The notes under the pieces were generated by a model that saw nothing but the letters and a program-made list of their open reading frames with translations, ran no database searches and was not told the origin of the DNA. A stretch of DNA of 64,000 nucleotides from an uncultured Geobacter sp. (GTDB lineage: Bacteria; Desulfobacterota; Desulfuromonadia; Geobacterales; CAIOGM01), in contig CAIUWK010000053.1 of NCBI GenBank assembly GCA_903902855.1, positions 1-64,000 of the forward strand, given 5' to 3'. A program made the position numbers and the translations under genes. This document shows positions 5,534 through 28,978 of the stretch, one piece after another; position 1 is the first letter of the stretch; every line of letters starts with the position of its first letter.

Positions 5534-5887
5534 TCACTTCCCTTGGGGGGGAGCAGGTGCGGTCGAGGCTGCAGGTTGCAGTGACTTGAATTTATTCTGC
5601 GTTTCCAGTGTCAGATTCTGTTTGGTTTCCACTGCGACCAGACTTCCGGACAGGACGTATTTGCCGGTTTTGTCGGTATAAAACACCACCGGCTGTTTGT
5701 CCACCAGGGCAACCACCTCACTCAATCCGGAGATATCTTTCAGCAGAGTAACCTGAACCACCTCAAAATTTACCGGCATGATCTTCTTGATGGAGGCGGT
5801 TACCGCTTCCTTGGTCGGAGCCGACGAACCACATGCAGCAAGAGATACTGATAACCCCACAATAATCAATTTTCTGGTAAGCGACAT
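5534..5887 (-). CDS. Lipoprotein consisting of a DsbC_N-like domain
   Basis: This is a 117-residue lipoprotein with a typical signal peptide and lipobox (LAAC, Cys20). The mature part resembles the N-terminal dimerisation domain of the periplasmic disulfide isomerase DsbC: IKKIMPVNFEVVQV, ISGLSEVV, QPVVFYTDKTGKYVLSG. The thioredoxin domain with the CxxC active site is absent, and the protein ends in a Pro/Ala-rich tail. The start has a good AAAGGAG site. DsbC_N alone cannot catalyse disulfide exchange, so a binding or structural role is more likely. It sits directly downstream of the 2980-residue lipoprotein gene and may share its transcript. The domain match is by eye. Confidence 0.82.
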   Translation of the reverse strand: MSLTRKLIIVGLSVSLAACGSSAPTKEAVTASIKKIMPVNFEVVQVTLLKDISGLSEVVALVDKQPVVFYTDKTGKYVLSGSLVAVETKQNLTLETQNKFKSLQPAASTAPAPPQGK

Positions 5888-5972: not shown

Positions 5973-8900
5973 TTACCTGCCGCCGGAAAACATCGTTGGC
6001 AAGACTCTTTTTCTTCCTTTCAGCACGCAGATGATAACCAAGAGTACTCCCATCAGGGCAAGGAGAGGAAACTCGATGCCGTAAATCAATGGGGTCAAGA
6101 GGAGGCGGGTCATGAACCGTAACCCTTCATGCTCGCGGATAACGTCAGCGACTTGGGGGCTGCCGGCGTAATAGAATTTGACGAATGCTGCTCCCATTGT
6201 CGACTTCATGAGTATGTTGTCCCGGAAATTCCTGAGCACATTAACATGCGGATCAAGGTAACTGCCATAGGCAGCCGTGGCAATGAAACAACCGCCACCG
6301 CCTCCGCCACCGCTTGAGGAGGGTGCGGCGTTATTGGCGATGGTAGTCGTAGCCACAACCGGGTCGACGATAACTCCCTGAGTTTTGTCGCTGTCAAGAG
6401 GTCCATCATCTTCAATGTTGTAACGGATTGTTTTACCATCACCAAGAATTGTATAATCAGTGCCTTTAGCCAATTTAATCCACACCCCGTTCACTATCTT
6501 ATAGATGACCGAATTATCGGTAAGTTGAGCCGTAAAGGTAACATCGAGAATCACCGTAGCCTTAGGGCCGGACGACGGTAAGCCGTCGATCTTCAAATTC
6601 ATCGCTTGATCGACCTGTTGACTGGTAGGTGCAGAACTAGAACTGGCGGCCGAGGCCGTACCATCGTTATAGAGAACCAAACTACCGCCACCGCTGATCA
6701 GCTTTACAGTAGCGGACTCAGTCCTTGCCGTACCGCTGAACTGTAACTGGTAAGTAGCGCCGACGGTATCGGTAAGCGTCATGGTTCCGGTATAATCCTG
6801 TCCCGACAGAGGGGCAAATGTTACGGGTACGGGAAGAGTGATCGACTTTCCCGAACTCAGCGTAAACGGCACGGGAATCTGATTTGCCAAGCTGAACCCG
6901 GAGCCCGCAAGTTGAACTGATATTATTGTTGCCGACGAAGCACCCTTATTGGCGAGGTTGATCTGCTGAGTGACGGCGCTGCCTACCCTGACATACCCGA
7001 AGTTCATCGCGGTAATTACGGACAATGAAGCTTCTACAAATCTGATATCACTGGATGTTGTTGGGTCAGACACATTTATGGAGAGTCCTTTGGAAGCACT
7101 TCTCCCCTCGCCGTCAGTGACGATCACCGTAAAGTTATACTGACCACCCGCGGTCAAGGTTCCCGTTCCGGTGGAGAGCAATCCGGTTGCCGCAGTCGCG
7201 GTCAAACCCGGAGGGAGCGCGCCGTTAACAGACCACGTGTATGGCAGGACGCCACCACTTGCCGCCAAAGTTTCATTGTAAGAAACCCCCTTTACCCCGC
7301 CGGGTAAAGCAGCGGTAACGATGGATATAGGGCTGGCCACAGTCAGATTCAGAATCGCGCTGCTCGTCGCTCCGCAGACATCACTAACGATGACAGTGAA
7401 GCTCTTATTCCCTGCTGCAATCGGTACACCGCTAATGCTCCCGGTGATAGGGTCAAGCGATAATCCGTCTGGGAGGCTATCGCCGGACTTGAGCGACCAA
7501 CTGTACGGCATGGTCCCGCCGCTCTTCGCCAGGGTTAAGTTATACAGAATGCCGCTGGTGCCGTTCGCCAGAGTCGTGGTCGTAATCGTCAACAGTTCGT
7601 TGATGACAATGCTGAACTGCCTGGTTGCCGTAGCAGGGGCCGTTGCGTTGCTGTCCGTCGCCTGTACGGTGAAGGTGTAACTCCCCGCTGTGGTCGGTGT
7701 CCCGGTGAGGAGCCCCCCGGCGCTCAGGGTCATGCCGGTGGGGAGAGATCCGACTGATACGCTCCAACTGTATGAACCGATACCGCCAGTTGCTCCCAGA
7801 GTTACCGCCGTATAGAGTGCGTTTCTGGTCCACGTGCTCGAGATGCTTGTCGTGTTGATCAAGACCGGAGCCACCACCTTGAAGGAGACGACTTTACTGT
7901 CCGTTCTACTTTCGGCGTCCGTAGCCAGAATGATGGCGCTGTAGTCACCCGCAGTATTCGGCGTCCCGCTGATGACGCCGGTATTGGAATTAAGACTTAA
8001 ACCCGTCGGCAGACTTCCCGCCGTCACCAGCCACGTTACGGGAGCTTTTCCGCCTGTGGTCACCAGTGTGAGGCTATAGGCCGCGTTGACGGCCAGCTGT
8101 TGAACAGGCGGTTGGGTGATGGTAATGGGGGAAATAATGGTCAGGCTCAGCCCCTGTTCCACCTTCGCTCCGCTGGCATCGGTGAGGGTCACGGTAAAAG
8201 TCGTGGTTCCCACCGTGGTCGGCATGCCGCCGATGGTCCCGTTAATCGAATCAAGGGTCAGTCCGGCAGGCAGAGTGCTACCGCTCTTCACTGCCCAGGT
8301 AAACGGTGTGGTCCCGCCGCTCTTGGCCAGAGCCTGGCCGTAGAGAATGCCGCTGGTCCCGTTCGCCAGAGTCGTGGTCGTGATCGCCAGCAGTTCATTG
8401 ATGACGATACTGAACTGCCTGGTTGCCATGGCCGGCGCTAACGTATTGCTGTCCGTCGCCTGCACGGTGAAGGTGTAACTCCCCGCCGTGGTTGGCGTCC
8501 CGGTGAGAACACCCCCGGCGCTCAGGGTCATCCCGGTGGGCAGGTTCCCGGCGCTTACACTCCAGGTATAGATAGTTGTCCCGCCGTTCGCCTGAAGGGT
8601 AACCGCCGTGTACAGTGCGTTTCTGGTCCACGTACTCGGGATGCTTGTCGTGGTGATCGAGACCGGTGCTGTAACCACCACCGAGATAGTTTTTGATGCA
8701 GTGCGGCCTGAATTATCCGTCACCGTAAAAATTGTATTCCAGGTGCCGGATACGGTGGGATTACCGTTTACCACGCCGGTATCTGCATTTAATGATAAAC
8801 CGGTGGGAAGTGCTGTACTTGACCATTTAGTCGGCAGGGTTGCGCCGGGCGAAAGAAGAGTAAAGTAAACTGCCGAACCGAGCGAATAATCAACTGAGCC

Positions 8901-11900
8901 GGTTGTCACAATTGACGATGGGTTGGATTCTATGGACATCTGCGATGTGATGACAATACTGAAGGTTTTAGTGACTTTCTCAGGAATCGTCCCGGAATCG
9001 GTCAACTCTATAGTAAACGCTGAGCTTCCCACCTTCGTTGGAGTGCCGCTGATCACACCAGTCGACGGATTCAAAGTTAAGCCTGTCGGTAACGTGTCAC
9101 CGGTGGCCAATGCCCATTTATAGGGAGCAACGCCGCCGGTCCCGGTAAGAGTTTCAACAAAACCATCAAGGTTCGCCTGCCACGATTTTAGCTGACTGTT
9201 CGTAATAACTAACGGGTCACGAACCGAAATTGTATAGAGTCTGGAGGAGATAGTCCCTGTAGCGTCAGAAAGCTGAAGGTTGAAGGTATAGGTGCCGGCC
9301 TGAGTCGGAGTCCCGGCAATGGTCCCTCCGGCAGAATTAAGCACAAGCCCGCTGGGTAGGCTCCCATTGGCGATGGACCAGGTATACGGCAATGTTCCAC
9401 CAGAAGCCTTCATTGACACACTGACCGCAGACCCGGTTTTCATGTCTGAAATGGAATCGGTGATTATCGCAGGTGGAGTATTGATCGTGATGCTCGTAGC
9501 CTGAACTTTGATCGTACCAGTGGCATCAATCGCCTGAAGGGTGAAATTGTAGGTACCGGGGGTAGTGGGAATGCCGGAAATGACCCCAGTAAATCTATCA
9601 ATGGTCAATCCATTAGGCAGAGCGCCGCTGCCACTGATTACGGCCCAGTTAAACGGAGGGGTCCCCCCGGAAAGTTGCAATGAAGAATTGTAGAGGATGT
9701 TAGGCAAGCTGCTTGGCAGAATAGTCGAGTTGAAAAGCATCGGCGAATTAACAACAAACCCGGTAATTATCCCGACTACACTCGCACCATTGGCATCGGT
9801 CACCTTTATCCCGAAATTATAGCCGTTGGGATATAATCCAATCGGTGTGCCGGTGACACTCCCTGTAACCGGGTCAAGAACAAGACCCACTGGTGAAGGA
9901 TCAGTCCGTTCGACACCATTAATGTGATAAGGGACGCCCCATTCCCATCGATATGGTGCTTGTCCGCCAAGAACCTGAAGTTTATCGGTATACCCGCCAA
10001 CTCCCTGGGTCCAGTGACTGAGTGTCGAAGTGAGAATTTGGATCTGAGGCACAACCGTAATCCTGAAGGATTTGCTCGCACTTCGTCCGGTAAAGTCTGT
10101 TACGGTAATGATCGTAGTGACGACACCTGGGGTGCCTGGAGTTAAAGAACTGAAATTGGCAGAAATGATCCCGGTTTTATTATCAAGAATCATCAGGTCC
10201 GGCATTGCCGAGCTGGTCCACGTCAGTGGCGCTGTCCCCCCAGTAGCACCAAGGGTAACACTCTTAGGATATCCGGCGGTGAAGCTGGGTATGGAATCAG
10301 TAGCAATTATCATCGGATCGGCAATGATAAGACTCAACTGCTTGGTCACCTTCTCCGGCACCGTTGCCGAATCGGAGAGTTCTATGGTGAAGTTGAAGGT
10401 TCCAGCCAAGGTCGGTTTGCCGCTGATCACGCCGGTTGCAGCATTAAGAACAAGCCCGTCAGGAAGTTTATCGCCGACTTTCAGCGCCCAGACATACGGC
10501 GCTGCCCCGCCGGTTCCAGTGAGGGTCTCCACGTACCCCGCCTGATTCGTTTCCCATGCCTTCAGGACGCCGCTGGTAATAAGCAGCGGATCACGCACGG
10601 CAGCTGTAAAGACCTTGTTGGCCGTGTTGCCGGCGGTGTCGGCAACCTGAATGGTGAAGCTGTAACTGCCCGCCTTGGTCGGGGTACCGGAAACGGTCCC
10701 GCCACCGGCATTCAGAATCACGCCATCCGGCAGAGTTCCGGCCGTCAGAGACCAACTGTACGGCAGGGTGCCGCCGGTCGCCTGCAAGGTGACGCTCACC
10801 GGCACATTCGTCTTCATATCGGAAATCGTACCGGTGTTAATTGCCAAAGCAAGTGTAATGGTCAGCCCCAACGTCTGCGATGAGGTCGCCCCGCTCTTGT
10901 CGGTCACCGTGACCGTGAAGGAGTACGGACCGGCGCTGGACGGCATCCCGCTGATGACACCGGTGAAGGGGTCAAGATTCATGCCGACAGGAAGTGCGCC
11001 ACCGGTCACCGCCCAACTAAAGGGGGCGGTGCCGCCGGTATGTCCCAGAGTCTGGGAATAGAGCAGATTCTGGGTGCCGTTGGGCAGGATGGCGGTCGTC
11101 AACAGCAGCTCCGCATTGACCACGATGGTGAACTGCCTGGTCCCCGCTGCCGGAGTCGTGGCGTTGCTATCCTTGGCCTGAACGGTGAATGTGTAGCTCC
11201 CCGCAAGATTCGGTGTGCCGCCCAGGATACCGGCGGCGGTAAGACTCATGCCGTTAGGAAGAGCTCCCGCAACGACACTCCAGCTATACCCCGGCACACC
11301 GCCACTGGCCGTCAACGTTACGGGAGTATATGCGACAAGTCGGGTCCATTCTGCGGAGATGCTTGTCGTGGTGATACTCACCGCATCCACAACGACGATG
11401 GCAAGGGTCTTTCGGTCGATTCTCCCGGCCGCATCAACCACCTGAACGACGAGCTGATACGTACCGGCCGTGGAGGGGGTCCCGGTAAAGGCGCCGGTAG
11501 AGGTGTTAAATAAAATGCCGGGAGGAAGGCTCCCGCTGAGGATGCTCCAGGTCAGGGGCGCAGTGACGCCATTGGTTACCAAGGTCGCATTGTAGGTAGA
11601 ACCGACGGCGACCGCAGGGAGAGTGGCGGTGGCGATGAGCGATGCGGTTGCCTGACCCTGCAGATTGATGGTCTGATTGCCGTTGGTGGCATCCGTCCCG
11701 ATGACGAAACTTGATGAAAATACCCCTGATGCTGCCGGGTTGAAGGTGACGAAGAGGGTGATACTGGTGTTGGGGAGGAGCTGAATGGGCGCGGTGCCGG
11801 TGTAGAGTATGGAAAACACCGGGTTTCCCGGATTGGTGAAACTGGTGATATTGAGAGGCGCATTGCCGCTGTTCGCCACCGTCAGGGCAACGGTTTTCGA

Positions 11901-14900
11901 GGTCCCGGAAGCGATCGCTCCGTAATCAACCTGCGCCGGCGTTACAGTTACCTGCCCTCCCGCCCCGATACCCTTGAGAGCCACGCTCCCCGAACCGCCA
12001 TTACTGACGATGGAGAGGGTTCCGGTGAAGGTTGCGATGCTGTCCGGGGTAAAACGAACCGTCACGGTGGAGGTCGCTCCCGCAGCTACGGAGACCGGAG
12101 TCGCCGGTGAGACCACCGAAAACGATGCGCCGTTCACGGTCAGGGCGTTGACCGTCAGGGTGTCGTTCCCTGTATTGCCGATGGTAAAAGTCAGGTCCTT
12201 GCTCGTCCCCCCTTTGACCACGCCAAAATCCACAGTTGCCGTGGAGACACTGAGAATCGGCGCAATCCCCTTACCCGACAACTGTACGGTTTTGTTGATG
12301 GTGGGATTATCCGTAATCAGGTTTATCTGGCCGGTAAAATCACCGGATTGAGTGGGTGTGAAGCGCACCGTCATGGAAACGGATTTCCCAGGGGCAATAA
12401 CCGTGGGAAGCGCCGGTTGATTAACTATGCTGAAAGGAGCGGCGATACCAGTGATATTTGTCAGGGATATCGTGGCAGTACCGTTATTGGTGATAATAAG
12501 GAACTGGTCCTGAGCGCTCTGACCGACCTTGGCGCTGCCGAAATTCATGTTCAGGGTGTTGACATCCAATGTGGGAGTGACTCCCTGTCCGCTCAGCGCC
12601 ACTGTCTTATTCTGAGCATCGGATGAAATCACAAAAGAGGCATTTGAGCTCCCCACGACAGTGGGCTTGTAGGTTACGGTAAAGGTCAGCTCGGCATTGG
12701 GAGGAAGTTGCGCCGACCCGGTGGGAGTTACCGTGAAAGGGGCGCCGGGGTCCGACAGACCGGAGATGGATAATGTAGTATCTCCCGTGTTTTTAACCTT
12801 GAACGACCGTGAATTCGTCTGGCTGACTGTTACCGAGCCGAAATCCAGCAGAGCGGGATTTAACGGCGAATTATCCAGATTGAGCAGGGTCAGGCCGGAT
12901 TGCCCCAGTGAAAAGCGCTGACCGTATATATCTGCACCCGTACCAATGCCGGCGGTGGGATTGGCGTTACGGGCGTCTTTCCAAACAGCCAAAAACTGAT
13001 TGGTCGTGCTGTTATAGCTGATTGCCGGGGAATCCTGAGTCCCCGGCGCATTGGTAATGGCGTAGTTGGAACCCCGGAGCGTCCCCTCCGTGTCCAGATA
13101 CTGGCCATAGATATCGAGATTTTCCGGTGAAGATATACCGTTTCTCCCATCCTTCCATGCGACGAAAAACCGCTGATTCACGCTATCATAGCTGATCGCG
13201 GGAGTGGTCTGGGCTGAGGCTGCCACATTTGCATCAAGAGTTCCGGTTCCGCTGGAATCCTGGTATCCGATGAAGTGATTGATGTTATAGAGGCCGCCAC
13301 CGGAGTAGAGGAGCTGGCCCCAGATCTTCTTGGTGGCGCCGTCGCGCATGTCTTCCCAGGCGGCCAGGAATTTTTTGCCGATGGGATCAAAGGCCAACGC
13401 AGGTTTGTAACTGGGTCCAGCTCCGGAATCCAGTAAATGCGAGGAAATAACCGGCTGTGGGGCCTCCTTGCCGAACAGGGCATAGATGTGAGCCATGCCG
13501 TTATCATGAGGCTTGGTACTGAAGGTAAAGGTGACCGGTTCGAAGATATCACAGATGCCGTTGCCGTTACTATCCGTGCAGCTACAGGTAAGGGTCGTAT
13601 CCTGCTTGACCCCTTCCCAGGCGAAGAGGGACTCGGGTGAGGTGGAGTCCACGGAAAGCATGACATTATTCAGAGTGGTGTAAAATTCGTAGTTATAGGT
13701 TTCGGTCAGAGAGAGAAGGCTGTTGGAGATGAGCCGGTCATTTATGGTTGCGCCATTTCTGAGAATGTCGGCTCCGGTGACTCCAAGAAACGAGGCTTGT
13801 GGATTCAGAGTGGCGCCCTCCAGGGAGATATAGCCCAGAAATGAATTATCGCCGGTGGCATAGGAGGCGTTGGCTCTGCCGAAACAGAGTTCGTTGTTAG
13901 TGGTCAGGAGCGTCCGCGACTCCACCCAGGCCAGCCAGAACCGATCCTGCACCGGATCATAGACAATCTTCGGGAGTTTGCGGGACTGGAGGGTATCGTC
14001 AATCCGTAGAATATCGGGTTTAGGCGACAATGAATAGGTCGTGTAGTTGTATGAGGCCTGGATGGCCGCACTGGCAGCCGGTCCCTTATTGAATTTCACT
14101 AACAGAGCGCCGGTATCGTAGTTGATGGAGCCGACGAGGGTGTTACCGGCACTATTAAAGAGCCCGGCGCCGTTATCGGTAGCGACACTCGCACCGTTAA
14201 CCAGGATACTCACACTATTTCTGACAACCGGTGTTGTGAGAGTTGCGGGATAGTCGGTAACGGTGCCGTCGCCGAAACCGATCAAGCTTAAATTCGCCGT
14301 AGAAGTCGGGGTAATTGAGGGTGTGACGTGTTGCTTGATCGGGTTGAAACCGATGATAACACCATTGGAGGGAAGAGGGGGAACATAGGCGGAACATGAT
14401 CCGCCGATGGGAATAGAACTCTGCGGAATGATGGCGTAGGAGACGTACCCGCCAGCCGCATTCCCCCGGGTATCCTGCCAGACAATGACGATCTTACTGT
14501 CGCTCCCCGTGGGGTCCATGCGGTACGCGGCCTGAGGCGAGGTCTGATTCCCCTGCGCCTGGGAGATGGGAAATGACCCACCACAGACGGTGCCGTCCGG
14601 ATTGACGAACTGGCCGTAGATGTCCGCACCGGTTGTGTTCTGGTCGCGCCAGTCCTCCCATACAACGAAATAAAGGTTCTTATCGGGGAGATAGATGGTA
14701 TGGGGATTCTGCTGGTCTCCCGGCTGGGGAGCAGTGTAGTTCCCCGAGGCGTCCGGTGTCATCCCGCTCACGAGGATCTCGGAACCGGCGAGTTTGGATA
14801 GACTCTTTTTGGAGGCAACATTCTGCGCCGGGTCACCCGAACTTCCCGAACAGGCCACCAGCAAACCAATCATGGTGATTCCGACGACTGCTGACAGAAA

Positions 14901-14915
14901 CCGCTCGATCTTCAT
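5973..14915 (-). CDS. Giant Ig-array lipoprotein with ASH repeats and CFI-box C-terminus
   Basis: The product has 2980 residues. The N-terminus is a lipoprotein signal (LLVAC lipobox). Residues of about 40-680 contain repeated WEDWRD/VVWxDxR...DIYGQ units, suggesting a beta-propeller-like head. About 680-1090 holds four ASH-type beta domains (FGSVTVSQTNSRSFKVKN type). Then follow 17 putative Ig domains of about 95 residues, another ASH-like domain, a choice-of-anchor U-like segment, a Gly-rich linker and a CFIATAAYGS box followed by a hydrophobic helix and basic tail. The last part matches the CFI-box-CTERM class of C-terminal sorting-type regions. The Ig array shows higher-order duplication. 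It is probably an outer-membrane or surface-exposed adhesin or stalk-like protein; the ligand is unknown. The combination of an N-terminal lipobox and a C-terminal sorting-type domain is unusual. Confidence 0.9.
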   Translation of the reverse strand: MKIERFLSAVVGITMIGLLVACSGSSGDPAQNVASKKSLSKLAGSEILVSGMTPDASGNYTAPQPGDQQNPHTIYLPDKNLYFVVWEDWRDQNTTGADIYGQFVNPDGTVCGGSFPISQAQGNQTSPQAAYRMDPTGSDSKIVIVWQDTRGNAAGGYVSYAIIPQSSIPIGGSCSAYVPPLPSNGVIIGFNPIKQHVTPSITPTSTANLSLIGFGDGTVTDYPATLTTPVVRNSVSILVNGASVATDNGAGLFNSAGNTLVGSINYDTGALLVKFNKGPAASAAIQASYNYTTYSLSPKPDILRIDDTLQSRKLPKIVYDPVQDRFWLAWVESRTLLTTNNELCFGRANASYATGDNSFLGYISLEGATLNPQASFLGVTGADILRNGATINDRLISNSLLSLTETYNYEFYTTLNNVMLSVDSTSPESLFAWEGVKQDTTLTCSCTDSNGNGICDIFEPVTFTFSTKPHDNGMAHIYALFGKEAPQPVISSHLLDSGAGPSYKPALAFDPIGKKFLAAWEDMRDGATKKIWGQLLYSGGGLYNINHFIGYQDSSGTGTLDANVAASAQTTPAISYDSVNQRFFVAWKDGRNGISSPENLDIYGQYLDTEGTLRGSNYAITNAPGTQDSPAISYNSTTNQFLAVWKDARNANPTAGIGTGADIYGQRFSLGQSGLTLLNLDNSPLNPALLDFGSVTVSQTNSRSFKVKNTGDTTLSISGLSDPGAPFTVTPTGSAQLPPNAELTFTVTYKPTVVGSSNASFVISSDAQNKTVALSGQGVTPTLDVNTLNMNFGSAKVGQSAQDQFLIITNNGTATISLTNITGIAAPFSIVNQPALPTVIAPGKSVSMTVRFTPTQSGDFTGQINLITDNPTINKTVQLSGKGIAPILSVSTATVDFGVVKGGTSKDLTFTIGNTGNDTLTVNALTVNGASFSVVSPATPVSVAAGATSTVTVRFTPDSIATFTGTLSIVSNGGSGSVALKGIGAGGQVTVTPAQVDYGAIASGTSKTVALTVANSGNAPLNITSFTNPGNPVFSILYTGTAPIQLLPNTSITLFVTFNPAASGVFSSSFVIGTDATNGNQTINLQGQATASLIATATLPAVAVGSTYNATLVTNGVTAPLTWSILSGSLPPGILFNTSTGAFTGTPSTAGTYQLVVQVVDAAGRIDRKTLAIVVVDAVSITTTSISAEWTRLVAYTPVTLTASGGVPGYSWSVVAGALPNGMSLTAAGILGGTPNLAGSYTFTVQAKDSNATTPAAGTRQFTIVVNAELLLTTAILPNGTQNLLYSQTLGHTGGTAPFSWAVTGGALPVGMNLDPFTGVISGMPSSAGPYSFTVTVTDKSGATSSQTLGLTITLALAINTGTISDMKTNVPVSVTLQATGGTLPYSWSLTAGTLPDGVILNAGGGTVSGTPTKAGSYSFTIQVADTAGNTANKVFTAAVRDPLLITSGVLKAWETNQAGYVETLTGTGGAAPYVWALKVGDKLPDGLVLNAATGVISGKPTLAGTFNFTIELSDSATVPEKVTKQLSLIIADPMIIATDSIPSFTAGYPKSVTLGATGGTAPLTWTSSAMPDLMILDNKTGIISANFSSLTPGTPGVVTTIITVTDFTGRSASKSFRITVVPQIQILTSTLSHWTQGVGGYTDKLQVLGGQAPYRWEWGVPYHINGVERTDPSPVGLVLDPVTGSVTGTPIGLYPNGYNFGIKVTDANGASVVGIITGFVVNSPMLFNSTILPSSLPNILYNSSLQLSGGTPPFNWAVISGSGALPNGLTIDRFTGVISGIPTTPGTYNFTLQAIDATGTIKVQATSITINTPPAIITDSISDMKTGSAVSVSMKASGGTLPYTWSIANGSLPSGLVLNSAGGTIAGTPTQAGTYTFNLQLSDATGTISSRLYTISVRDPLVITNSQLKSWQANLDGFVETLTGTGGVAPYKWALATGDTLPTGLTLNPSTGVISGTPTKVGSSAFTIELTDSGTIPEKVTKTFSIVITSQMSIESNPSSIVTTGSVDYSLGSAVYFTLLSPGATLPTKWSSTALPTGLSLNADTGVVNGNPTVSGTWNTIFTVTDNSGRTASKTISVVVTAPVSITTTSIPSTWTRNALYTAVTLQANGGTTIYTWSVSAGNLPTGMTLSAGGVLTGTPTTAGSYTFTVQATDSNTLAPAMATRQFSIVINELLAITTTTLANGTSGILYGQALAKSGGTTPFTWAVKSGSTLPAGLTLDSINGTIGGMPTTVGTTTFTVTLTDASGAKVEQGLSLTIISPITITQPPVQQLAVNAAYSLTLVTTGGKAPVTWLVTAGSLPTGLSLNSNTGVISGTPNTAGDYSAIILATDAESRTDSKVVSFKVVAPVLINTTSISSTWTRNALYTAVTLGATGGIGSYSWSVSVGSLPTGMTLSAGGLLTGTPTTAGSYTFTVQATDSNATAPATATRQFSIVINELLTITTTTLANGTSGILYNLTLAKSGGTMPYSWSLKSGDSLPDGLSLDPITGSISGVPIAAGNKSFTVIVSDVCGATSSAILNLTVASPISIVTAALPGGVKGVSYNETLAASGGVLPYTWSVNGALPPGLTATAATGLLSTGTGTLTAGGQYNFTVIVTDGEGRSASKGLSINVSDPTTSSDIRFVEASLSVITAMNFGYVRVGSAVTQQINLANKGASSATIISVQLAGSGFSLANQIPVPFTLSSGKSITLPVPVTFAPLSGQDYTGTMTLTDTVGATYQLQFSGTARTESATVKLISGGGSLVLYNDGTASAASSSSAPTSQQVDQAMNLKIDGLPSSGPKATVILDVTFTAQLTDNSVIYKIVNGVWIKLAKGTDYTILGDGKTIRYNIEDDGPLDSDKTQGVIVDPVVATTTIANNAAPSSSGGGGGGGCFIATAAYGSYLDPHVNVLRNFRDNILMKSTMGAAFVKFYYAGSPQVADVIREHEGLRFMTRLLLTPLIYGIEFPLLALMGVLLVIICVLKGRKRVLPTMFSGGR

Positions 14916-14981: not shown

Positions 14982-15518
14982 TCAGTTCACAAAATCCGCA
15001 AACCGGACGTTGCTCTGGGCTGAGACGTCAAAGGTGTCCCCGGCCTTGTAATATTGGCAATGAAACGTCATGGTCACGTAATAGGAGTAGATGATGGAAC
15101 TGCAGCGCAGCGCCCTCAACGGCAGCGCACCCTTAAAGTCCTGGGGGGCCACCCGCACGGCAATCGTCACCGAGTTCCCCATTTCCACCCGGGTGCCTAC
15201 CAAGGTCATGGGAGCTGGAGAAGGCAGCGGCGGAGAGATGGTGTTGGCCGGCGAGTAGACAATATCCACGGAATTGACCAGAACCGCTTCATTAACGGTA
15301 TTGCTGGTGGAGGGGAAAGGAAACGCGGCAAGGGTGACATTGAGATCATCCGGGAGGACAGTGTAGGTTGAAGTTACTCCACAGGGGGTGCCGACCCATT
15401 TGGCCACATCCGAGTCCAGGTTCGTGACAGTCGCGGTGGCCGTCGCCCCTCCCCCACCGCCGCATGATGCCAGACCTATCCCACAGAGCGCTACAAGAAA
15501 CCTAACCAGTCGTTTCAT
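14982..15518 (-). CDS. Small hypothetical lipoprotein
   Basis: The 178-residue product has a lipoprotein signal with LASC lipobox followed by a Gly-rich linker (CGGGGGATATATVT). The rest is predicted to be beta-rich, with cysteines at the CGVTST, LRCSS and FHCQY positions. A good TAAGGAGG site precedes the ATG. It starts just after pilQ with only about 12 bases between them, so it may be the last gene of the pil transcript. It may assist PilQ or the downstream giant lipoprotein, but I do not recognise the family and cannot assign a function. Confidence 0.75.
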   Translation of the reverse strand: MKRLVRFLVALCGIGLASCGGGGGATATATVTNLDSDVAKWVGTPCGVTSTYTVLPDDLNVTLAAFPFPSTSNTVNEAVLVNSVDIVYSPANTISPPLPSPAPMTLVGTRVEMGNSVTIAVRVAPQDFKGALPLRALRCSSIIYSYYVTMTFHCQYYKAGDTFDVSAQSNVRFADFVN

Positions 15519-15530
15519 GAAAAATCCTCC

Positions 15531-17774
15531 TTAACTCAGTACCCTCGGCGTTATGAAAATTAATAGTTCGGTCTTAAGCTTGCTCTTGGTATGGGATTTG
15601 AACAGCCAGCCGAAAAACGGGATATCCATGAGGAACGGAACTCCGGAATTGTTCTCGGTGTCGTTGTCGATGTAGATGCCGCCGATGACGGTGGTCTCGC
15701 CGTTGCGCACGATGAGTTCGGTGGTCGCTTCCTTCTTGTTGATGGCCGGGGCCGTCCCCCCCGGCGGGACCGCTCCGGGAGAGTTGTTGGACGCCTTGAT
15801 CTTCATCATGACGCTGCCGTCCGGTGTGATATGGGGTGTTACCTCCAGGGAGAGCGCCGCTTCCACGAACTGGGTCACGGCGCCGGTGTTGGCCGTGGTA
15901 TTCTGGTACGGGATCGACTGCCCTTGGGTGATCTTGGCCGCCTTGTTGTTCAGTGTGGCGATCTTGGGGGTTGAAACGATCTTGATCAGATCGGCGGTCA
16001 CCGCAGCGGAAAGGCGCAGATCCAGACTGATGTTGCTAGCCAGAGTGCCGAAGCTGATCCCCGTGGCCATCCCCGGCCCGGAAGTCCCCGAAGTCGGCGG
16101 CGAAGAGACCGCCCCCCCGAATCCGGAGTTGAGGCTGTTGACTCCCAGGATTGAGGCCGACGCATCACGATAATGAATGCCCCACTGAATCCCCAGGTCA
16201 TGGGTAAAACTGTCGGAGGCCTCCACGATGCGCGCCTCGATGAGCACCTGCTTTTCCGGTATGTCGATGCTCTCCAGAAACTTCTGCATCCGGATCACCG
16301 CCGGCTCGATATCCGTCACGATGACCTTGTTGGTCCGTTCGTCCTGGGTGATGGAGCTATCGGAACGACCGCTCCCCAGGGTCCTGAACTGGGTGACCAG
16401 ATCGGAGGACTGGGCAAAGTTGACATCAAAGACCCGGGTCTTCAGCTCCATCATCTTTTCCCGGCTCTTTTTCGCGTCCAGGGCCTCCTCGTCGGAACTC
16501 TTGAATTTATTCTGAGGTTTAACCAGGACGATGTTCCCTTCGGCCCTCATGGCCAACCCCTTGGATTCCAGGATCATGTCCAGGGCCTGATCCCAGGGGA
16601 CGTTCACCAGCTTGATGGTGATAACGCCGGTGACGTCGTCCCCCAGAAGCATGTTGAGATTGCTCACCTCGGCGATAAGCTGGAAGATCTTCCGGATATC
16701 CGCATCCACAAATTCCAGTGTTACCTTCCGCCCGGTGTAGAGCTTTTTTGTGCCGGGGGGAGCCGCCACCGAATCCTGCAATTTTTTAATGGTTGTCTCG
16801 GAGGAGGGAGGAGTAACAGGTTGAGGTTGAGATTTGACCGGAGCTTCCGGCTCCGTCTTCACTGCAAGCTTTGGATGGGTGATATCCAGGAGTATGGTGC
16901 CGCTCTCCTGGCGCAAGGACCAGGTTGCAGGCTGATTCAGCTTCACCAGCACCCGAGTCTCCGGTACCCCTTTCACCGATAGCTGATAGGGAGTCACCGA
17001 CCGGACCACGCTGGGAAAGGCTCTGGTATCCAGAGGTCGACGAATGTTCCGGGGGAGAAGGCACTTTTTCACAAAGAATGACAACCCTTCGGAATTTTTG
17101 AACGGTTGTGTCGCCAGACAGGAGCCCCCCACCTTCATGGTGATCCGGGAACCGGTATCGACTATGGCAAAGTCCAGAGATTCGACCCGTGAATGGGAAT
17201 CGATCCCCGCCGCTGCAAGCGCAGCAGGAGCCTCTTCCACCGACTTGCCGGTGAAATTCCCCGGAGAAACCGTTTGAAGCCTTACCCCCTGGTTAGTCCT
17301 GATCACTTTTACCAGAGTGAACACACCTGCTCTCCCATGAAAGACGATACGGCTTTTCCCTTCTAATTCAACCAGACGGGCGCTGGTAATACCGAAGCTG
17401 TTGAGGTTGACCTTGTCGGAGCCCACGCCGTTCCGGACACCAGGGAGGTCGATGACCAATCGGTCCGGTTTCGTCATGGGAAAGGCCGTATAGTCGGCAA
17501 CCGGACCATCGGTGACAAGATCAATCCCCTCCGCCGTTTCCACAAGCTTCACGAGAGTGAGCCCCGTCACCACGGCGTGAAGGGGCGAGAGTGGGGGAGG
17601 ATCACTCTTATTCTCCGCCTGCTCCGGAACAGTCTCGGACCTTGCCGGTTGGGTTAGAGACGGTAGCGGCTTGACCTCTTGACCCAAGGCAGGCATGACC
17701 AGCCCCAAGGCCACCAGCCAAAGAATCAAGGTTCCCACCGCAGTTCTAATGATATTTTCAAACAGGGATTTCAT
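15531..17774 (-). CDS. pilQ: Type IV pilus secretin PilQ
   Basis: This is a 747-residue outer-membrane secretin that forms the channel for the type IV pilus fibre. The start chosen is the ATG at 17774, with an AAGGAG site and signal peptide (MKSLFENIIRTAVGTLILW). An upstream in-frame extension lacks a signal and overlaps pilP. N-terminal AMIN domains (about 55-300) precede a secretin/TonB short domain (VTLEFVDADIRKIFQLIAEVS, about 365), an N1 domain, and the C-terminal secretin domain with VPFLMDIPFFGWLFKS and ELLIFITPRVLS at the end. It is the last pil gene of pilMNOPQ and is transcribed with them. Length and layout are normal for the family. Confidence 0.97.
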   Translation of the reverse strand: MKSLFENIIRTAVGTLILWLVALGLVMPALGQEVKPLPSLTQPARSETVPEQAENKSDPPPLSPLHAVVTGLTLVKLVETAEGIDLVTDGPVADYTAFPMTKPDRLVIDLPGVRNGVGSDKVNLNSFGITSARLVELEGKSRIVFHGRAGVFTLVKVIRTNQGVRLQTVSPGNFTGKSVEEAPAALAAAGIDSHSRVESLDFAIVDTGSRITMKVGGSCLATQPFKNSEGLSFFVKKCLLPRNIRRPLDTRAFPSVVRSVTPYQLSVKGVPETRVLVKLNQPATWSLRQESGTILLDITHPKLAVKTEPEAPVKSQPQPVTPPSSETTIKKLQDSVAAPPGTKKLYTGRKVTLEFVDADIRKIFQLIAEVSNLNMLLGDDVTGVITIKLVNVPWDQALDMILESKGLAMRAEGNIVLVKPQNKFKSSDEEALDAKKSREKMMELKTRVFDVNFAQSSDLVTQFRTLGSGRSDSSITQDERTNKVIVTDIEPAVIRMQKFLESIDIPEKQVLIEARIVEASDSFTHDLGIQWGIHYRDASASILGVNSLNSGFGGAVSSPPTSGTSGPGMATGISFGTLASNISLDLRLSAAVTADLIKIVSTPKIATLNNKAAKITQGQSIPYQNTTANTGAVTQFVEAALSLEVTPHITPDGSVMMKIKASNNSPGAVPPGGTAPAINKKEATTELIVRNGETTVIGGIYIDNDTENNSGVPFLMDIPFFGWLFKSHTKSKLKTELLIFITPRVLS

Positions 17775-17784
17775 AGTACACTCC

Positions 17785-18315
17785 TTACTCTTTCCTGGGA
17801 AGGGTAAGTTTAACGCCTCGGTTCCTGATCTTGCCGTTTTCTTCACGATACTGCTCCGCAACCTCAAGAGTGGTCGGCTTGATACTCCGCACCCGACCGT
17901 TGTGTGGTCCGATTAATGACCCTTCCTTTACGACGTAGGATTTCCCGGTGGGATCCAGCACCATGGCTCTGTTTTCCGTCAACCCGGTGATGATCCCCAT
18001 GAGTTTGAACTGATTCACTTCGTACTTCTGAATGGGAATCTGATTTTCCGAGATTGGCGGCAGGGGGAGTTTCGCCCTGGTGGCGGCCACAAAAGAGCGA
18101 AATGGATCTTTTTTGGACGAAAAATCGAACTGCTCCTGGAGAGAGGGGGGGGCTGCCGAACTGATTTTCTTCTGGAGGGGAGATTTGACCCCCTCTGCCG
18201 ACTTGGTGGCGCCGGGACGCGACTCCTTCTCTTTCGTGCCGCAACCGCAAGGGGCCACTGCCAGGAGCGCCGGAAGAGTCAGCGCCAGGAACAGGTTCTT
18301 CTTACTTGGCATCAT
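17785..18315 (-). CDS. pilP: Type IV pilus assembly lipoprotein PilP
   Basis: This 176-residue inner-membrane lipoprotein links the PilN/PilO pair to the secretin PilQ. An N-terminal signal leads to a CGCG lipobox-type sequence. The C-terminal beta-domain contains KDPFRSF and the family-typical YEVNQFKLMGIITG, followed by VKEGSLIG. Two consecutive ATG codons (18315 and 18312) overlap the end of pilO by 14 bases, preceded by an AAGGAAA site, so translation is probably coupled. It lies in the standard pilMNOPQ order. Confidence 0.95.
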   Translation of the reverse strand: MMPSKKNLFLALTLPALLAVAPCGCGTKEKESRPGATKSAEGVKSPLQKKISSAAPPSLQEQFDFSSKKDPFRSFVAATRAKLPLPPISENQIPIQKYEVNQFKLMGIITGLTENRAMVLDPTGKSYVVKEGSLIGPHNGRVRSIKPTTLEVAEQYREENGKIRNRGVKLTLPRKE

Positions 18316-18895
18316 GAGCTATTTCCTTCTTGTCCAGAAACCGGAAGGTAGTTGCCAGACAAGTTACCCGTACCATGGTGCGCCCCCCCGCATCCCGGAT
18401 GTCGGCAAAAGAGACATTGCCGATGTTGACGATGCGAGGAAGTTTCCCCACCGAGATGAAAAAAGTAGCGAGTTCGTAATAGGTTCCGGATACGGAGATA
18501 TCAACCGGCACTGCGGCGTAAAAATCTTTCGGCTCTTCCCCTTTGGGGCGAAAGATCAGGAAATCCAGACCGGCCGCCTTCCCCGCCGAGGTGATACCGG
18601 TGAGCAGAGTCGGGATCTCTTTCTGGTTGGGAAGTTCGGTGAGGGCATTCTGGAGATCCTGCAGCAAAAGGTCATATTCATGTTTCAACCGGGGGAGGTT
18701 ATCGGCGATCTTGCGCTTCTCGCCGACCTCATTTTGCAGGGTAGTCAGTTTATCGGTGAGTTGCGCATATTCAACCTGCCGTGGGGTGAAAAAAAAGAAG
18801 TAATATCCTGCGACTTCCACGATGAGAAGGAGAAACAGGATCAGCAACTTCTGTTTATTCGGCAGCCTGAAGAGTGCTTCCAGTCGCGGCTCCAT
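18302..18895 (-). CDS. pilO: Type IV pilus inner-membrane protein PilO
   Basis: The 197-residue protein has a single N-terminal membrane helix (LLILFLLLIVEVAGYYFFFF), then a coiled coil (about 45-90), then a ferredoxin-like periplasmic domain with the family features LLTGITSAGKAAGLDFLIFRP and VSGTYYELATFF. PilO pairs with PilN to form the alignment subcomplex. The gene follows pilN by 15 bases and overlaps pilP. Confidence 0.95.
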   Translation of the reverse strand: MEPRLEALFRLPNKQKLLILFLLLIVEVAGYYFFFFTPRQVEYAQLTDKLTTLQNEVGEKRKIADNLPRLKHEYDLLLQDLQNALTELPNQKEIPTLLTGITSAGKAAGLDFLIFRPKGEEPKDFYAAVPVDISVSGTYYELATFFISVGKLPRIVNIGNVSFADIRDAGGRTMVRVTCLATTFRFLDKKEIAHDAK

Positions 18896-18910
18896 GTCTC
18901 CCCCGGTTCC

Positions 18911-19489
18911 TTACGTGGGCGGTTGTCCCGGTTTGGGCTCTTCTTTTCGGGGAGCCCCCAGTTTACAGGTGAGGTCGAACCGTTTGACCTTCACGCCGGA
19001 CAGATCCATCTGTTCGGACACCAGCAGCTCAACCTGATGAAATTGGCGGGATGTTTCGAGATTTCGCATGAAATCGGCAATGAGCTCTTCGGTATAGGCG
19101 ATCCCGCCGATACTGAGGGCATCGGCGTTTTCGCTGTATTTGGTCAACCAGACCTTGTCGGGGACGGCATCGCTCAATGCCGCCAACCGTTTCACCGGAC
19201 CGCTCTTCCCTGCCCGGAGCTGTTTGAGAACCTCCAGCTTCTTGCGCACATCTGCCTGCAGTTTCTTGATATTATCAATCTGACCGATTTTGGCCTTGAG
19301 TTGCTGGATCTCGTTTTCAGCCTTGGTAATGGAGAGTTTGGCGGCATTGATCCTGAGCACCAAGTACCACTGAATTCCCCCCATGATGACCACCGTTGTT
19401 GCCAGGAAGAGGAGCAGGATGGTGAACTGCTGCTTGACGGTCTCTTTCTGCCGGGTTTCCCGGACGAGGAGCAGATTGATCTTGATCAT
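18911..19489 (-). CDS. pilN: Type IV pilus inner-membrane protein PilN
   Basis: The 192-residue protein begins with MIKINLLLVRE, the conserved PilN motif (INLLP-like) that docks into cytoplasmic PilM. One membrane helix follows (FTILLLFLATTVVIMGGIQW), then a coiled coil and a periplasmic domain. The start ATG overlaps the pilM stop in an ATGA, indicating translational coupling. It has the normal length and position in the pilMNOPQ operon. Confidence 0.96.
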   Translation of the reverse strand: MIKINLLLVRETRQKETVKQQFTILLLFLATTVVIMGGIQWYLVLRINAAKLSITKAENEIQQLKAKIGQIDNIKKLQADVRKKLEVLKQLRAGKSGPVKRLAALSDAVPDKVWLTKYSENADALSIGGIAYTEELIADFMRNLETSRQFHQVELLVSEQMDLSGVKVKRFDLTCKLGAPRKEEPKPGQPPT

Positions 19490-20538
19490 TTGTCCCCATA
19501 CCTCCTCATGGCCAACCCCATCGCCACGGCAACATGAGGTCCGACATCCTTGAGAAAACCGGGAGGATACATATTATCCGGGCAGACGATCTTTTGAAAG
19601 GGATCAATGAGCTCAACCGGTATGTCCAGGCGCTTCCGGATCGCATCCAAAATAAATGGCGTCTTGGAACAGCCGCCGCTGACGTACAGTCTCGTGATCT
19701 TGTCACTACCGGTATTAGCCCCATAAAAATCCATGGAGCGGTAAAGTTCCATGGCCAGGCTCTCGTTACATGAGAGGATGACCCCGAGCACTGTCTCGTC
19801 AGAGGCGCCCCCTTGGGAGAGCTTCAGTTTCTCCGCTTCGTCCCCCTTCACTGCCAGCTTCTTCCGAATCTCCTGAGTATACTGTTTCCCCCCCCATTGA
19901 ATGTCCCGGGTAAAGAGAGATTCCCCCCCTTTGACGATGTTGAGATTCGTGGTGGCATCGCCGATATTGGCCAAGGCGATGACCTCGTCCGGCGACGGAT
20001 CGTAGTTCGCCTCAAAGGCGTTCTGAACCGCAAAGGCATCCACATCCAAAACGGTGAGCGTTACTCCTACCGTGTCAAACAGGGTGACGTAATCATGAAT
20101 GATATCCTTTTTACTTGCCACCAGGATGACGTTCATCCTTTTGGGGGCGCTCTCGTCGGGACCGAGGATATGGAAGTCGATATTTACGTCGTTGATGTCG
20201 AAGGGGATGTACTGCTCGGCTTCCCAGTTGATCTGCTCTTCCAGCTCTTCGGCGGTCATCTCGGGAAAACTGATTTTTCGGATGATGACCGAGTTGCCTG
20301 CTATGGAGCAGGCGGCCTGTTGAGCCGTGACGTTAACTGTCCTGATCAGACCTCGCACCCCCTCGGCTATGGCGGAGATATCCATGAGAGTGTTGTCCAC
20401 AATAGCCTCGGTGGGGAGATTCGCCATGCCGACCTTGACCAGCTCGTAATGCCCTTTCGTTTCCCTGAGCTGTACCAGTTTGATGGATGTGGAGCCGATA
20501 TCGATTCCCACCAGTTCTTTTTTCCTGAACGAAAACAT
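19486..20538 (-). CDS. pilM: Type IV pilus actin-like ATPase PilM
   Basis: PilM is the cytoplasmic actin-fold protein of the pilus machine that recruits PilN. The 350-residue sequence shows the phosphate 1 loop near the N-terminus (VGIDIGSTSIKLVQL), a VNIDFHILGP segment, and the second phosphate/adenosine region (ANIGDATTNLNIV, LYVSGGCSKTPFI). It is the first gene of pilMNOPQ. The 378-base upstream region is AT-rich and probably carries the operon promoter. A GTGAGG-type ribosome site lies before the ATG. Confidence 0.96.
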   Translation of the reverse strand: MFSFRKKELVGIDIGSTSIKLVQLRETKGHYELVKVGMANLPTEAIVDNTLMDISAIAEGVRGLIRTVNVTAQQAACSIAGNSVIIRKISFPEMTAEELEEQINWEAEQYIPFDINDVNIDFHILGPDESAPKRMNVILVASKKDIIHDYVTLFDTVGVTLTVLDVDAFAVQNAFEANYDPSPDEVIALANIGDATTNLNIVKGGESLFTRDIQWGGKQYTQEIRKKLAVKGDEAEKLKLSQGGASDETVLGVILSCNESLAMELYRSMDFYGANTGSDKITRLYVSGGCSKTPFILDAIRKRLDIPVELIDPFQKIVCPDNMYPPGFLKDVGPHVAVAMGLAMRRYGDK

Positions 20539-20916: not shown

Positions 20917-21555
20917 CTATCTTACGAAGAGCCATTCGGTTCCGCTCCAGCGGCAGAGGGTAATGATGCCGGCCGGATTGAGGGCAATGGCGAAGGAATC
21001 TGCGTCATTCGTTATAAACAGACCGGCGTTTTGCATAGACTCCGTAAGAAACCCCTTGTCGTCGAACCGCATGCACTTCTGACCATTGAGTAGATCCACG
21101 GGCGGGCAAGGCATGAAGTTCCGGATTACCAGGTCGCTGTCCGAGGTCCCGTCGCTGCAGGCTGCCTTGTTAACAGAGGGTTGCAGCCCGAAGTGAGCCT
21201 TCCCCTTCCCCAGCGACCCGCTGTTCAGCACCGAGAATTCGTTGTTATCTCTGATACCGTTGTGGTTGTCGTCACGCCACTGAACGACCTGATAATTACC
21301 GGTAGTCGCATCCACTGCCACGTAGATCCGCTTCTTGATCAGTTGGGAGGAATAATTGCGCATCTCCACCCCCCCCCGCTTCATGGCCTGGGACTGTGCC
21401 CATTTGAACGTCTCATGGAGCGTGCCGGCGCTCTCCTCCAAGTTGCTCCGGCGGTACCAGGTAAGAAAGGGGGCGCCTGCCATACCGGTGAGGAGAGCGA
21501 TCAGCCCCACAACAACTATTACCTCAATCAGGGTGATGCCGCTCTTGTTTTTCAC
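20917..21555 (-). CDS. Minor pseudopilin, FimT/GspH type
   Basis: This is a type IV minor pilin with a class III leader: KNKSG followed by ITLIEVIVVVGLIALLTGMAG, with the invariant Glu at +5. The C-terminal part is a GspH/FimT beta domain containing several Cys residues (CSDG, FMPCPP, KCMRF, LCRW). I prefer the GTG start at 21555, because GGAGG lies about 5 bases upstream and the GTGA overlaps the pilY1 stop; an ATG at 21567 would add four residues (212 versus 216 aa). It is the last gene of the pilVWXY1-fimT unit, whose products form the priming complex at the pilus tip. Confidence 0.9.
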   Translation of the reverse strand: MKNKSGITLIEVIVVVGLIALLTGMAGAPFLTWYRRSNLEESAGTLHETFKWAQSQAMKRGGVEMRNYSSQLIKKRIYVAVDATTGNYQVVQWRDDNHNGIRDNNEFSVLNSGSLGKGKAHFGLQPSVNKAACSDGTSDSDLVIRNFMPCPPVDLLNGQKCMRFDDKGFLTESMQNAGLFITNDADSFAIALNPAGIITLCRWSGTEWLFVR

Positions 21556-26501: not shown

Positions 26502-26510
26502 GCTCTTCTC

Positions 26511-27137
26511 CTAAAATTCTTTTCGAGGATTGGCGGCGGCAGAGCCGACGGACTCTCCGGTAAAACCTTCCCGTGGTCCCCCCTGACCGAACTGTTTGTA
26601 GTCCGTACCGAGGGGTTTCGTGTAGATCACTCCGGCGTCGATGACCGTCTGGGTCTGATCTCCGGCCCGCTCCGCCACCGCCATGATTTCCACCACCTTG
26701 GGTATATTGGTTGTCTTGGCGTATATCTTGTACGTGTAGGTATCACTGGCACCATGGGCCATGGCACCGGTGAGGTCGAGATTGTAAGTTTCCCCGCCCA
26801 GGGTGAAGGTAGGGAGCGCTCTGGTAAAGACCGAATGAATGCTGCTTGACAGATTAATAAAGCTCTTGTCGTTGATTCCGGGCATACAGCTGCCGGCGCC
26901 CCAGTTGGGGGGGAGACAATCTTTGGACATGAGGATATAGCGGGACTGATTCAGGCCGATCTCGGCGGTGTACAGATTCTGACTCTTGATGACGGTGTCC
27001 CGGGTGCTTCGGGTAAAAAGCCCCACGCGGTAGGAGAGCGCAACCACCACCAGGGTCAGCAGGAGGGTTACCAGCAGGGCGATGACAAAGGCCATCCCCC
27101 TCTCTTTTGATCTGTGCGGATCAGTTGAAGAAGACAA
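26511..27137 (-). CDS. Minor pilin PilX-like
   Basis: The 208-residue product starts at a TTG supported by GAGGTG 7 bases upstream; it overlaps the end of pilW by 17 bases. The N-terminus DPHRSKERG precedes MAFVIALLVTLLLTLVVVAL, a type IV pilin-like leader and helix without the usual +5 Glu, as in PilX/GspK-type minor pilins. The following domain contains a CLPPNWGAGSCMPG cysteine pair. It lies in the conserved pilV-W-X-Y1 order. The PilX name is from position and N-terminus, as the C-terminal domain is poorly conserved. Confidence 0.85.
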   Translation of the reverse strand: MSSSTDPHRSKERGMAFVIALLVTLLLTLVVVALSYRVGLFTRSTRDTVIKSQNLYTAEIGLNQSRYILMSKDCLPPNWGAGSCMPGINDKSFINLSSSIHSVFTRALPTFTLGGETYNLDLTGAMAHGASDTYTYKIYAKTTNIPKVVEIMAVAERAGDQTQTVIDAGVIYTKPLGTDYKQFGQGGPREGFTGESVGSAAANPRKEF

Positions 27138-28194: not shown

Positions 28195-28195
28195 G

Positions 28196-28660
28196 TCAGA
28201 AACTCCACATGGTGCTGAACGAGCGCGATCTGGTCTGCCCCTTCTGCTGATACTGCACAACCGACGTAATGATGACCGGCTTCGGATCGACCGTCACTCC
28301 GGGGACCTGATCTATTCTGAAAGTTCTCCTGAATTTGGCCGCCGGATCCTTGTCCGTAGTCACCTCACCTTTATTTGTCAGATATTCCACCGGGCTCGAG
28401 TAAGAGGTACCCCCCGCCAGGTAGGTATCAACCAGATCCCGCGGTAAGGAGATGAGCTCTTCCACCTTCATGGCCGCGGCATCCTTGGCTTTCACACTGA
28501 TACCGATGGAGCTGTTGATATCCATGGTATTGAGGAGATGGGGGATTATGGCCAGAAGACTGATGCTGACGATTCCCATGGCGACAAGGAGTTCTGCCAG
28601 AGTAAAACCGGCTTGCGGGGTTACTTCTTCGGACCAGTTCTCAGCTCCTCTTGATTTCAT
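28196..28660 (-). CDS. Minor pilin PilV-like
   Basis: The ATG at 28660 yields a 154-residue protein with a leader ending in PQAG and a processed N-terminus FTLAELLVAMGIVSISLLAII with Glu at +5, the type IV prepilin pattern. A GAGGT site lies 8 bases upstream. A TTG start at 28714 would add 18 residues with no benefit. It is the first gene of the pilV-W-X-Y1-fimT unit. Its promoter should lie in the AT-rich 28661-28978 region, but no clear -35/-10 pair was identified. Confidence 0.9.
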   Translation of the reverse strand: MKSRGAENWSEEVTPQAGFTLAELLVAMGIVSISLLAIIPHLLNTMDINSSIGISVKAKDAAAMKVEELISLPRDLVDTYLAGGTSYSSPVEYLTNKGEVTTDKDPAAKFRRTFRIDQVPGVTVDPKPVIITSVVQYQQKGQTRSRSFSTMWSF

Positions 28661-28978
28661 ATCCCGTGACCTCGCACGTGAGTTGATTTTCACAAGAAAT
28701 GCCGATTCAAACAATTGCTCGCTAATGTATCAAATATTATTAGCATTTGCAACTGTTATGCCGATTATATGGGTGATCATGTCGGATACCGGTCACAAAT
28801 CCCGGATACGCCTTATTTATTGAGTCATAACGGAATGTTAACTGCTGCGAGAGTATGCTTTTCAGGGGAGGTTACGCGAGGGGTAGGGAAGAACTGCAGC
28901 TCTAAATTTCCGGTGTACGTAGTTCACTCTGCATTTTTTGCGTGGTATGGGGTCACGAAGAGAAAATCTTACTCCACA

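Follow-up and report, generated by a model that had tools for sequence, protein, structure and literature searches.

The locus and the large protein encoded beside pilQ

In the window, meaning the whole stretch of 64,000 nucleotides analyzed here, a minor pilin-pilY1-pilMNOPQ cluster is followed by a gene for a protein of 2980 residues ending in a CFI-box domain (Table 1). Its translation starts with MKIERFLSAVVGITMIGLLVAC, followed by SGSSG, and ends with ...GGGGGGGCFIATAAYGS...KGRKRVLPTMFSGGR. The initial annotation described a Gly-rich linker, a CFI box, a hydrophobic helix and a basic tail at one end of this protein and an LVAC lipobox at the other, and both descriptions held: the four C-terminal elements all lie inside 5973-6330 on the minus strand, where profile NF041770 (CFI_box_CTERM) is matched with 97.1 bits against a cut-off of 40 (residues 2876-2944, positions 1-69 of 69), and Cys22 is found in the translation as part of a typical lipoprotein signal. 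The protein has both a lipobox after a hydrophobic stretch near the N-terminus, as bacterial lipoproteins do, and the tripartite C-terminus (motif, membrane helix and basic tail) of dedicated C-terminal sorting signals. Moreover, an NCBIfam profile search placed five choice-of-anchor D domains in it. Among its neighbors, four genes are named by eye in Table 1, from gene order and sequence, and we take them to be pilM, pilN, pilO and pilP. Just upstream of the prepilin-like genes lies a rhomboid protease gene (28979-29935), and positions 1-4797 hold a second large Ig-type protein (1599 aa), which runs off the window and whose start resembles a 188-aa ORF at 4854-5420.

Table 1. Features of the 2980-residue protein and of the neighboring genes (positions in the window).
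Feature	Position	Strand	Basis or content
Whole ORF, 2980 aa	5973..14915	-	lipoprotein signal, beta-propeller (predicted), Ig array, CFI domain, membrane helix (predicted)
Signal peptide, residues 1-21	14853..14915	-	sequence; lipobox regex
Lipobox LVAC, Cys22, Ser at +2	14850..14861	-	sequence; kept in relatives
Predicted beta-propeller, about residues 41-673	12897..14795	-	AlphaFold2 and VIA-align
Ig array: 5 HYDIN/ASH-like and 17 He_PIG stretches, limits approximate	6600..12880	-	Pfam
Choice-of-anchor U domain, residues 2784-2855	6351..6566	-	NF041766, 35.8 bits, cut-off 32
Gly-rich linker, residues 2869-2875	6291..6311	-	sequence
CFI_box_CTERM domain; box CFIATAAYGS = residues 2876-2885	6084..6290	-	NF041770; AlphaFold2 pLDDT 86, helical
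Helix 4, amphipathic, residues 2930-2948, overlaps end of CFI domain	6072..6128	-	AlphaFold2 model; hydropathy
Helix 5, predicted membrane helix, residues 2950-2968; basic residues from 2966	6012..6068	-	AlphaFold2 model; hydropathy
Small lipoprotein, 178 aa, between pilQ and the CFI gene	14982..15518	-	often kept there
PilQ secretin	15531..17867	-	Secretin PF00263
Presumed pilP, pilO, pilN, pilM	17785..20538	-	named by eye, gene order and sequence
N_methyl/GspH-like, PilY1 (21552-26501), PilX, PilW and N_methyl prepilin-like genes	20917..28714	-	domain matches
Lipoprotein, 117 aa, DsbC_N only, just downstream of the CFI gene	5534..5887	-	domain match

The N-terminal part of the protein was modelled with AlphaFold2 (pLDDT 79, pTM 0.71), and VIA-align returned Z-scores of 23-29 for this model against many propellers, among them 7fh8 (Z 29.4, rmsd 3.1 over 371 residues), YncE 3vgz (Z 27.8, rmsd 3.6 over 317 residues) and the seven-bladed design 7bif (Z 23.6). 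Foldseek alone gave low whole-model TM-scores for the propeller, with 0.28-0.34 in the best row. Judging from these models, the N-terminal part is predicted to be a beta-propeller, probably most like seven-bladed ones, with the blade numbers of 7fh8 and 3vgz being those that we assume for these entries.

Defined by the N-terminal 750 residues, the family to which the protein belongs has a common plan, composed of a lipobox, the predicted beta-propeller, from one to more than 20 Ig domains, the CFI domain and a membrane helix, and the chain between propeller and CFI domain ranges from about 61 to about 2225 residues. Lipobox calls, which were based on a regular expression, identified the motif in 19 of 21 distinct propeller-family relatives (window not counted) versus 4 of 96 other CFI proteins. 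A 20th relative (L089) was judged by eye to have a lipobox, and the 21st (L138, Syntrophorhabdaceae) combines the CFI tail with a leader of the signal-peptidase-I type, so that the lipid and C-terminal anchors are not strictly coupled. The presence of two anchoring signals in one protein, to which the initial annotation had drawn attention, is kept in members across the order and also in L086, a contig from Nitrospirota that encodes a minimal form of the family, with 806 aa. Culturable carriers of such relatives include Geomonas oryzae (L106) and G. edaphica (L097). As for the suggestion that this topology is uncommon, the combination is real, but within this sample of CFI proteins it cannot be called rare, with both signals in 23 of 117 distinct 5'-complete ORFs, and hence lipobox plus CFI domain is a lineage trait rather than a single-gene oddity. 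Furthermore, as the pairing recurs in relatives of the same family, it is not due to chance. Among 13 members of the order, the propeller profile gave a full-length match only in the window's own genome; CFI is absent from seven of the 13, three of which (G004, G007 and G014) show partial matches only, to regions of Ig domains or blades. A different family of the phylum, with one full-length case (L290), has a propeller protein beside pil genes with neither lipobox nor CFI tail, and the gene of L290 is convergent with those pil genes.

The place of the gene in the type IV pilus locus is conserved as well, as for pilus components. Among the distinct CFI ORFs for which 2.5 kb or more of upstream sequence was available (101, window not counted), PilQ is encoded upstream, in the same orientation, for 20 of the 21 propeller-family members and for none of the 80 other CFI proteins (22 of 23 versus 0 of 84 before removal of duplicates). 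The exception is L089, where the small lipoprotein gene adjoins the CFI gene and no pil gene occurs in the 5.5 kb upstream, which counts against a connection to the pilus. Of the 22 distinct members, counting the window, 13 have a small lipoprotein gene recognized by similarity to that of the window; the DsbC_N lipoprotein is encoded just downstream in half of the members with at least 600 bases there (10/20). Synteny with pilQ by itself shows no function, and among the papers listed by a literature search none on this pilus-linked propeller-CFI family was recognized.

The CFI domain and the search for a partner protease

Tails were collected by a contig scan with the pattern CF[IV]ATAA[YW], from which the best 80 of at least 567 relatives were kept; the tail alignment omitted 6 of 85 computed references, and the invariance of the box in it is partly by construction, since the scan pattern contained the box. 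For the 80 aligned tails, AlphaFold2 predicted five helices with a mean pLDDT of 86, the most hydrophobic being helix 5 (mean Kyte-Doolittle value of 1.53 over the 80 tails, and 0.84 for helix 4). The Cys of the scan loci lies 87-124 residues before the stop (95-115 in most cases), and a hydrophobic stretch is present in 84 of 86 tails, followed by a net charge of 0 to +8. Among the best-scoring new domains of the wider phylum, a set that is less biased in this respect, like the variant domains described below, although it comprises high-scoring full-length matches only, the Cys is kept in 27/27 and a membrane-like stretch is found in 19/27. Regarding the fold, the best Foldseek hit for the CFI model had an E-value of 6.2, VIA found nothing at Z>=2 among 9 chains, and no sequence relative of the domain was detected in the PDB (best E 0.096); such failed fold matches do not show a new fold for the CFI domain. 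The CFI domain also has conserved FRD and YY residues. In the literature library searched, neither CFI-box nor CFIATA gave a hit.

The hydrophobic helix with its basic tail might be an ordinary stop-transfer anchor that has no further role, with the CFI domain working as a folded spacer, and the occurrence of CFI domains without a membrane helix agrees with this. Nevertheless, the conserved Cys and the conservation of the domain across compartments suggest more than a spacer, and we hold this explanation to be very improbable.

The initial annotation also considered processing by an unknown sorting enzyme and proposed looking for a protease that co-occurs with CFI-box proteins. Our search gave no support to that idea, as none of the families tested (rhomboid, rhombosortase, CPBP and exosortase) is present in every CFI carrier, none of them exceeds its cut-off in two genomes described below, and 13 of 13 plasmid and phage CFI proteins inspected lack a leader. 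Rhomboid proteases (PF01694) were found in 43/46 CFI genomes versus 92/102 others (p 0.76), at least two copies occurring in 14/46 and 43/102, respectively (p 0.20), CPBP proteases in 21 of 31 CFI relatives versus 2 of 7 without CFI (p 0.09), and exosortase in 23/31 versus 1/7 (p 0.006), where copy numbers were read by eye and the p values are only a guide because the genomes are related. Rhombosortase exceeded its cut-off in none of 38 relatives, with the window's genome reaching 76.5 bits at best against a cut-off of 84. Exosortase is thus correlated with the CFI domain and not required, as it was not found in 8 CFI genomes. Moreover, two genomes, G017 and G020 (100% and 99% complete), encode an exported CFI protein with a membrane tail (L034, L069). 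In G020, no rhomboid (E<=0.01), CPBP, exosortase or rhombosortase match was found; in G017, none of the four families passed its cut-off, the rhomboid match having 17.5 bits and an internal stop, and no CPBP or exosortase was found. These two genomes indicate that none of the four families is necessary for the exported form. The search for a CFI enzyme is thereby narrowed, since four obvious candidates are not needed. Universal enzymes, for instance Lgt, LspA or FtsH, might carry out processing.

Rhomboid proteases deserve separate consideration, as one of them might cut the box between IATA and AYGS and free the protein from the inner membrane. The letters of the rhomboid site in Providencia TatA are IATAAFGS (PMC11364529), and an earlier report places the cut between A8 and A9, i.e., between IATA and AFGS, and gives a substrate rule of a small P1 and hydrophobic P4 and P2' residues, adding that cleavage may also take place beyond the membrane segment (PMC2941825). 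The box sequence IATAAYGS is close to that of TatA and agrees with this rule, with A, I and Y at P1, P4 and P2' and helix 5 downstream, and the window itself has a rhomboid gene. In addition, a post hoc comparison found at least two rhomboid matches in 9 of 10 short-box genomes versus 48 of 138 (p 0.0008), although the genomes are related, the ten were chosen by eye and the rhomboids were also counted by eye. Nevertheless, rhomboids are equally common in genomes without CFI, exported forms occur in G020 and G017 as described above, the former having no rhomboid match, and 13 leaderless proteins examined by eye have I or V at the P4 place in 13/13 and Ala at the P1 place in 11/13. The likeness to the TatA site, striking as it is, is weakened by the fact that leaderless proteins have nearly the same letters, and cleavage of the box by a rhomboid is in our view very unlikely. 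The rhomboid gene of the window was also considered as a positional partner and dropped, as rhomboids were found far from the CFI gene on the same contig in the single-contig genomes G012, G026, G029 and G032.

Short cysteine boxes and CFI domains in other proteins

Choice-of-anchor U domains were found at 25 places in 14 of 148 genomes, and the tails that follow them are varied: 3 are long CFI domains, 9 have a short Cys box and, after it, a stretch that more or less resembles a helix, 5 stop 6-10 residues past the Cys, and 8 have no box or are unreadable. Similarly, MXAN_6640-type domains occur at 22 places in 15/148 genomes (over the family cut-off in only 3/148), and 17 of these 22 tails were inspected: 4 are long CFI domains, 8 end 5-11 residues past the Cys, 3 have a short box with a longer tail, and 2 have none. 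Since CFI domains, short boxes and abrupt ends alternate there, the site is a place of anchor exchange. The 13 proteins with abrupt ends (L246-L248, L254, L188, L308-L311, L320-L322 and L324) stop 5-11 residues past the Cys and have no membrane helix; their box consists of a Gly- or Asp/Ser-rich linker and Cys-Phe-Ile/Leu/Val, and 11 of them have a leader-like N-terminus by eye, one of the other two being cut at the 5' end. In genome G072, a Cys box is present in 7 of 10 choice_anch_U proteins. The family NF041763, named 'CFI-box putative sorting motif' by NCBI, was passed by one of nine tails tested.

These findings bear on the explanation that the CFI box is a C-terminal sorting signal, in which, following the proposal made for MYXO-CTERM, an enzyme would modify the Cys and cut off the tail, while the protein would stay lipid-anchored and free to reach the surface. 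In agreement with this, tails vary after both kinds of domain, most abruptly ending proteins have a leader-like N-terminus (11/13), the copy number per genome is high (15 CFI matches in G112, besides the G072 boxes), the Cys is kept in all of the 27 best-scoring domains and in all 23 variants seen by eye (see below), and NCBI has named the short family accordingly. Nevertheless, the long domain is well conserved in leaderless proteins and no tested protease family is necessary; we therefore regard such a signal as possible, with the chances against it. A bolder proposal, which we consider doubtful, is that the Gly-Cys-Phe-Ile/Leu box would be the core of a new C-terminal attachment tag, whose short form needs neither membrane helix nor long domain and of which the CFI domain would be an elaborated, exchangeable form; the Cys would be modified by an enzyme unrelated to rhombosortase, myxosortase and exosortase, and the pilus-linked protein would then be lipid- or membrane-anchored at both ends. 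The short Gly-Cys-Phe-Ile tails would be the cleanest material for asking whether the box Cys is modified.

The CFI domain is also found outside exported proteins. The window's genome encodes three CFI proteins, the second being a putative metalloprotease of the MXAN_6640 family (579 aa) with a leader, and the third a 325-aa protein that lacks a leader, a Gly linker and a membrane helix. CFI matches were further found in 59 plasmid records and one phage record, and in the 13 of these 60 proteins inspected by eye no N-terminal leader was seen and a clear hydrophobic tail was absent from 12, the exception being L300 from Haladaptatus. The leaderless carriers, which have the domain at or near their C-terminus, include an Mrr-type nuclease from Haloquadratum, a cold-shock protein from Burkholderia, several TPR-type sequences and one protein of a phage; two Paracoccus CAP proteins among the 13 may use type I secretion or another secretion route. 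With leaders judged by eye, the domain is thus not restricted to exported proteins, and its use in leaderless ones points to a function that is intrinsic to the domain or to its Cys. Four small plasmid CFI proteins (L297, L301, L302 and L303) were also seen, with a PD-(D/E)XK nuclease annotated near L297, L302 and L303.

Two genomes from one family of the phylum, G106 and G070, have 20 and 37 CFI matches. Of these 57 matches, 23 were inspected: judged by eye, a leader is present in most of them but not in every one, their tails do not resemble membrane segments, and in 23/23 variant domains a Cys lies just upstream, at a varying distance and with the rest of the box largely lost. The matches of these two genomes (L217-L236) have the appearance of an attachment domain at the C-terminus that has expanded in one lineage. 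As separate observations, L207, L213 and L245 combine a CFI domain and membrane helix with an N-terminus like that of type IV prepilins, the frame of L213 and L245 continuing into a further prepilin-like stretch. In L205 and L209 the CFI domain and membrane helix lie mid-frame, and the same frame goes on to a stretch resembling a signal peptide and then to what by eye is an apparent outer-membrane protein.

Proposed role and comparison with known systems

The reading that we prefer, giving it about an even chance, is that the 2980-residue protein serves the type IV pilus as an accessory lipoprotein, anchored in the envelope by both of its ends, and that the CFI domain is a module of general use at the C-terminus. 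The protein would be exported by Sec and lipidated at Cys22, and, following the Lol rule for Ser at +2 in lipoprotein sorting, its propeller end would be delivered to the outer membrane. The C-terminal helix would stop in the inner membrane with the basic tail inside, and the helical CFI domain would lie on the membrane surface as a general module for membrane attachment or association, uncleaved by any dedicated sorting protease. Next to the PilQ secretin, and with the Ig chain as a spacer, the propeller may serve the pilus as a partner that binds or organizes. A taut tether from inner to outer membrane, considered as the main picture, was rejected, as the large variation in the length of the chain between propeller and CFI domain makes it unlikely; a chain that hangs slack, or one end being let go later, agrees better with this variation. 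The preferred reading is favored by the place after pilQ and the frequency of the lipobox in the family, by the hydrophobic stretch of nearly all tails and the charge that follows it, by the leaderless CFI proteins, by the two genomes in which no tested sorting protease exceeds its cut-off, and by L290, which has neither lipobox nor CFI tail. Against the preferred reading, choice-of-anchor U precedes varied C-terminal signals elsewhere, which favors a sorting role, and exosortase is commoner in CFI relatives than in those without CFI. Overall, the hitherto unexplained CFI-box domain gains a testable setting, namely a conserved protein beside the pilus secretin in Geobacter relatives that has a signal for each of the two membranes.

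Among other C-terminal anchors, the tail resembles GlyGly-CTERM in its Gly-rich stretch before the C-terminal helix and basic residues, but GlyGly-CTERM gave no match at E<=1 in the 2980-aa protein and, unlike in the GlyGly-CTERM/rhombosortase system, no relative has a rhombosortase over the cut-off. It also resembles MYXO-CTERM, for which lipidation and then cleavage are proposed by the authors, with MrtX as the myxosortase, and in which an invariant Cys is likewise followed by a membrane helix and a basic tail (PMC11980579). In the CFI protein, a domain of about 70 aa lies between Cys and helix. MYXO-CTERM (TIGR03901) is not among the six families matched at E<=1 by the 2980-aa protein, and, unlike in the MYXO-CTERM/myxosortase system, CPBP proteases were not found in 10 of 31 CFI relatives. 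From its models, the protein appears similar to PilY1 (PF05567) in being a large exported protein with a predicted beta-propeller encoded in a pilus locus, but its propeller is N-terminal and accompanied by a lipobox and a CFI tail, no PF05567 match was found in it at E<=0.01, and the window has its own PilY1. Also close are the families NF041770 and NF041763: the former is matched far above its cut-off, and short relatives occupy the same site in related proteins. Compared with other CFI_box_CTERM carriers, what distinguishes the protein described here is that the domain is joined to a lipobox and to a pil locus.
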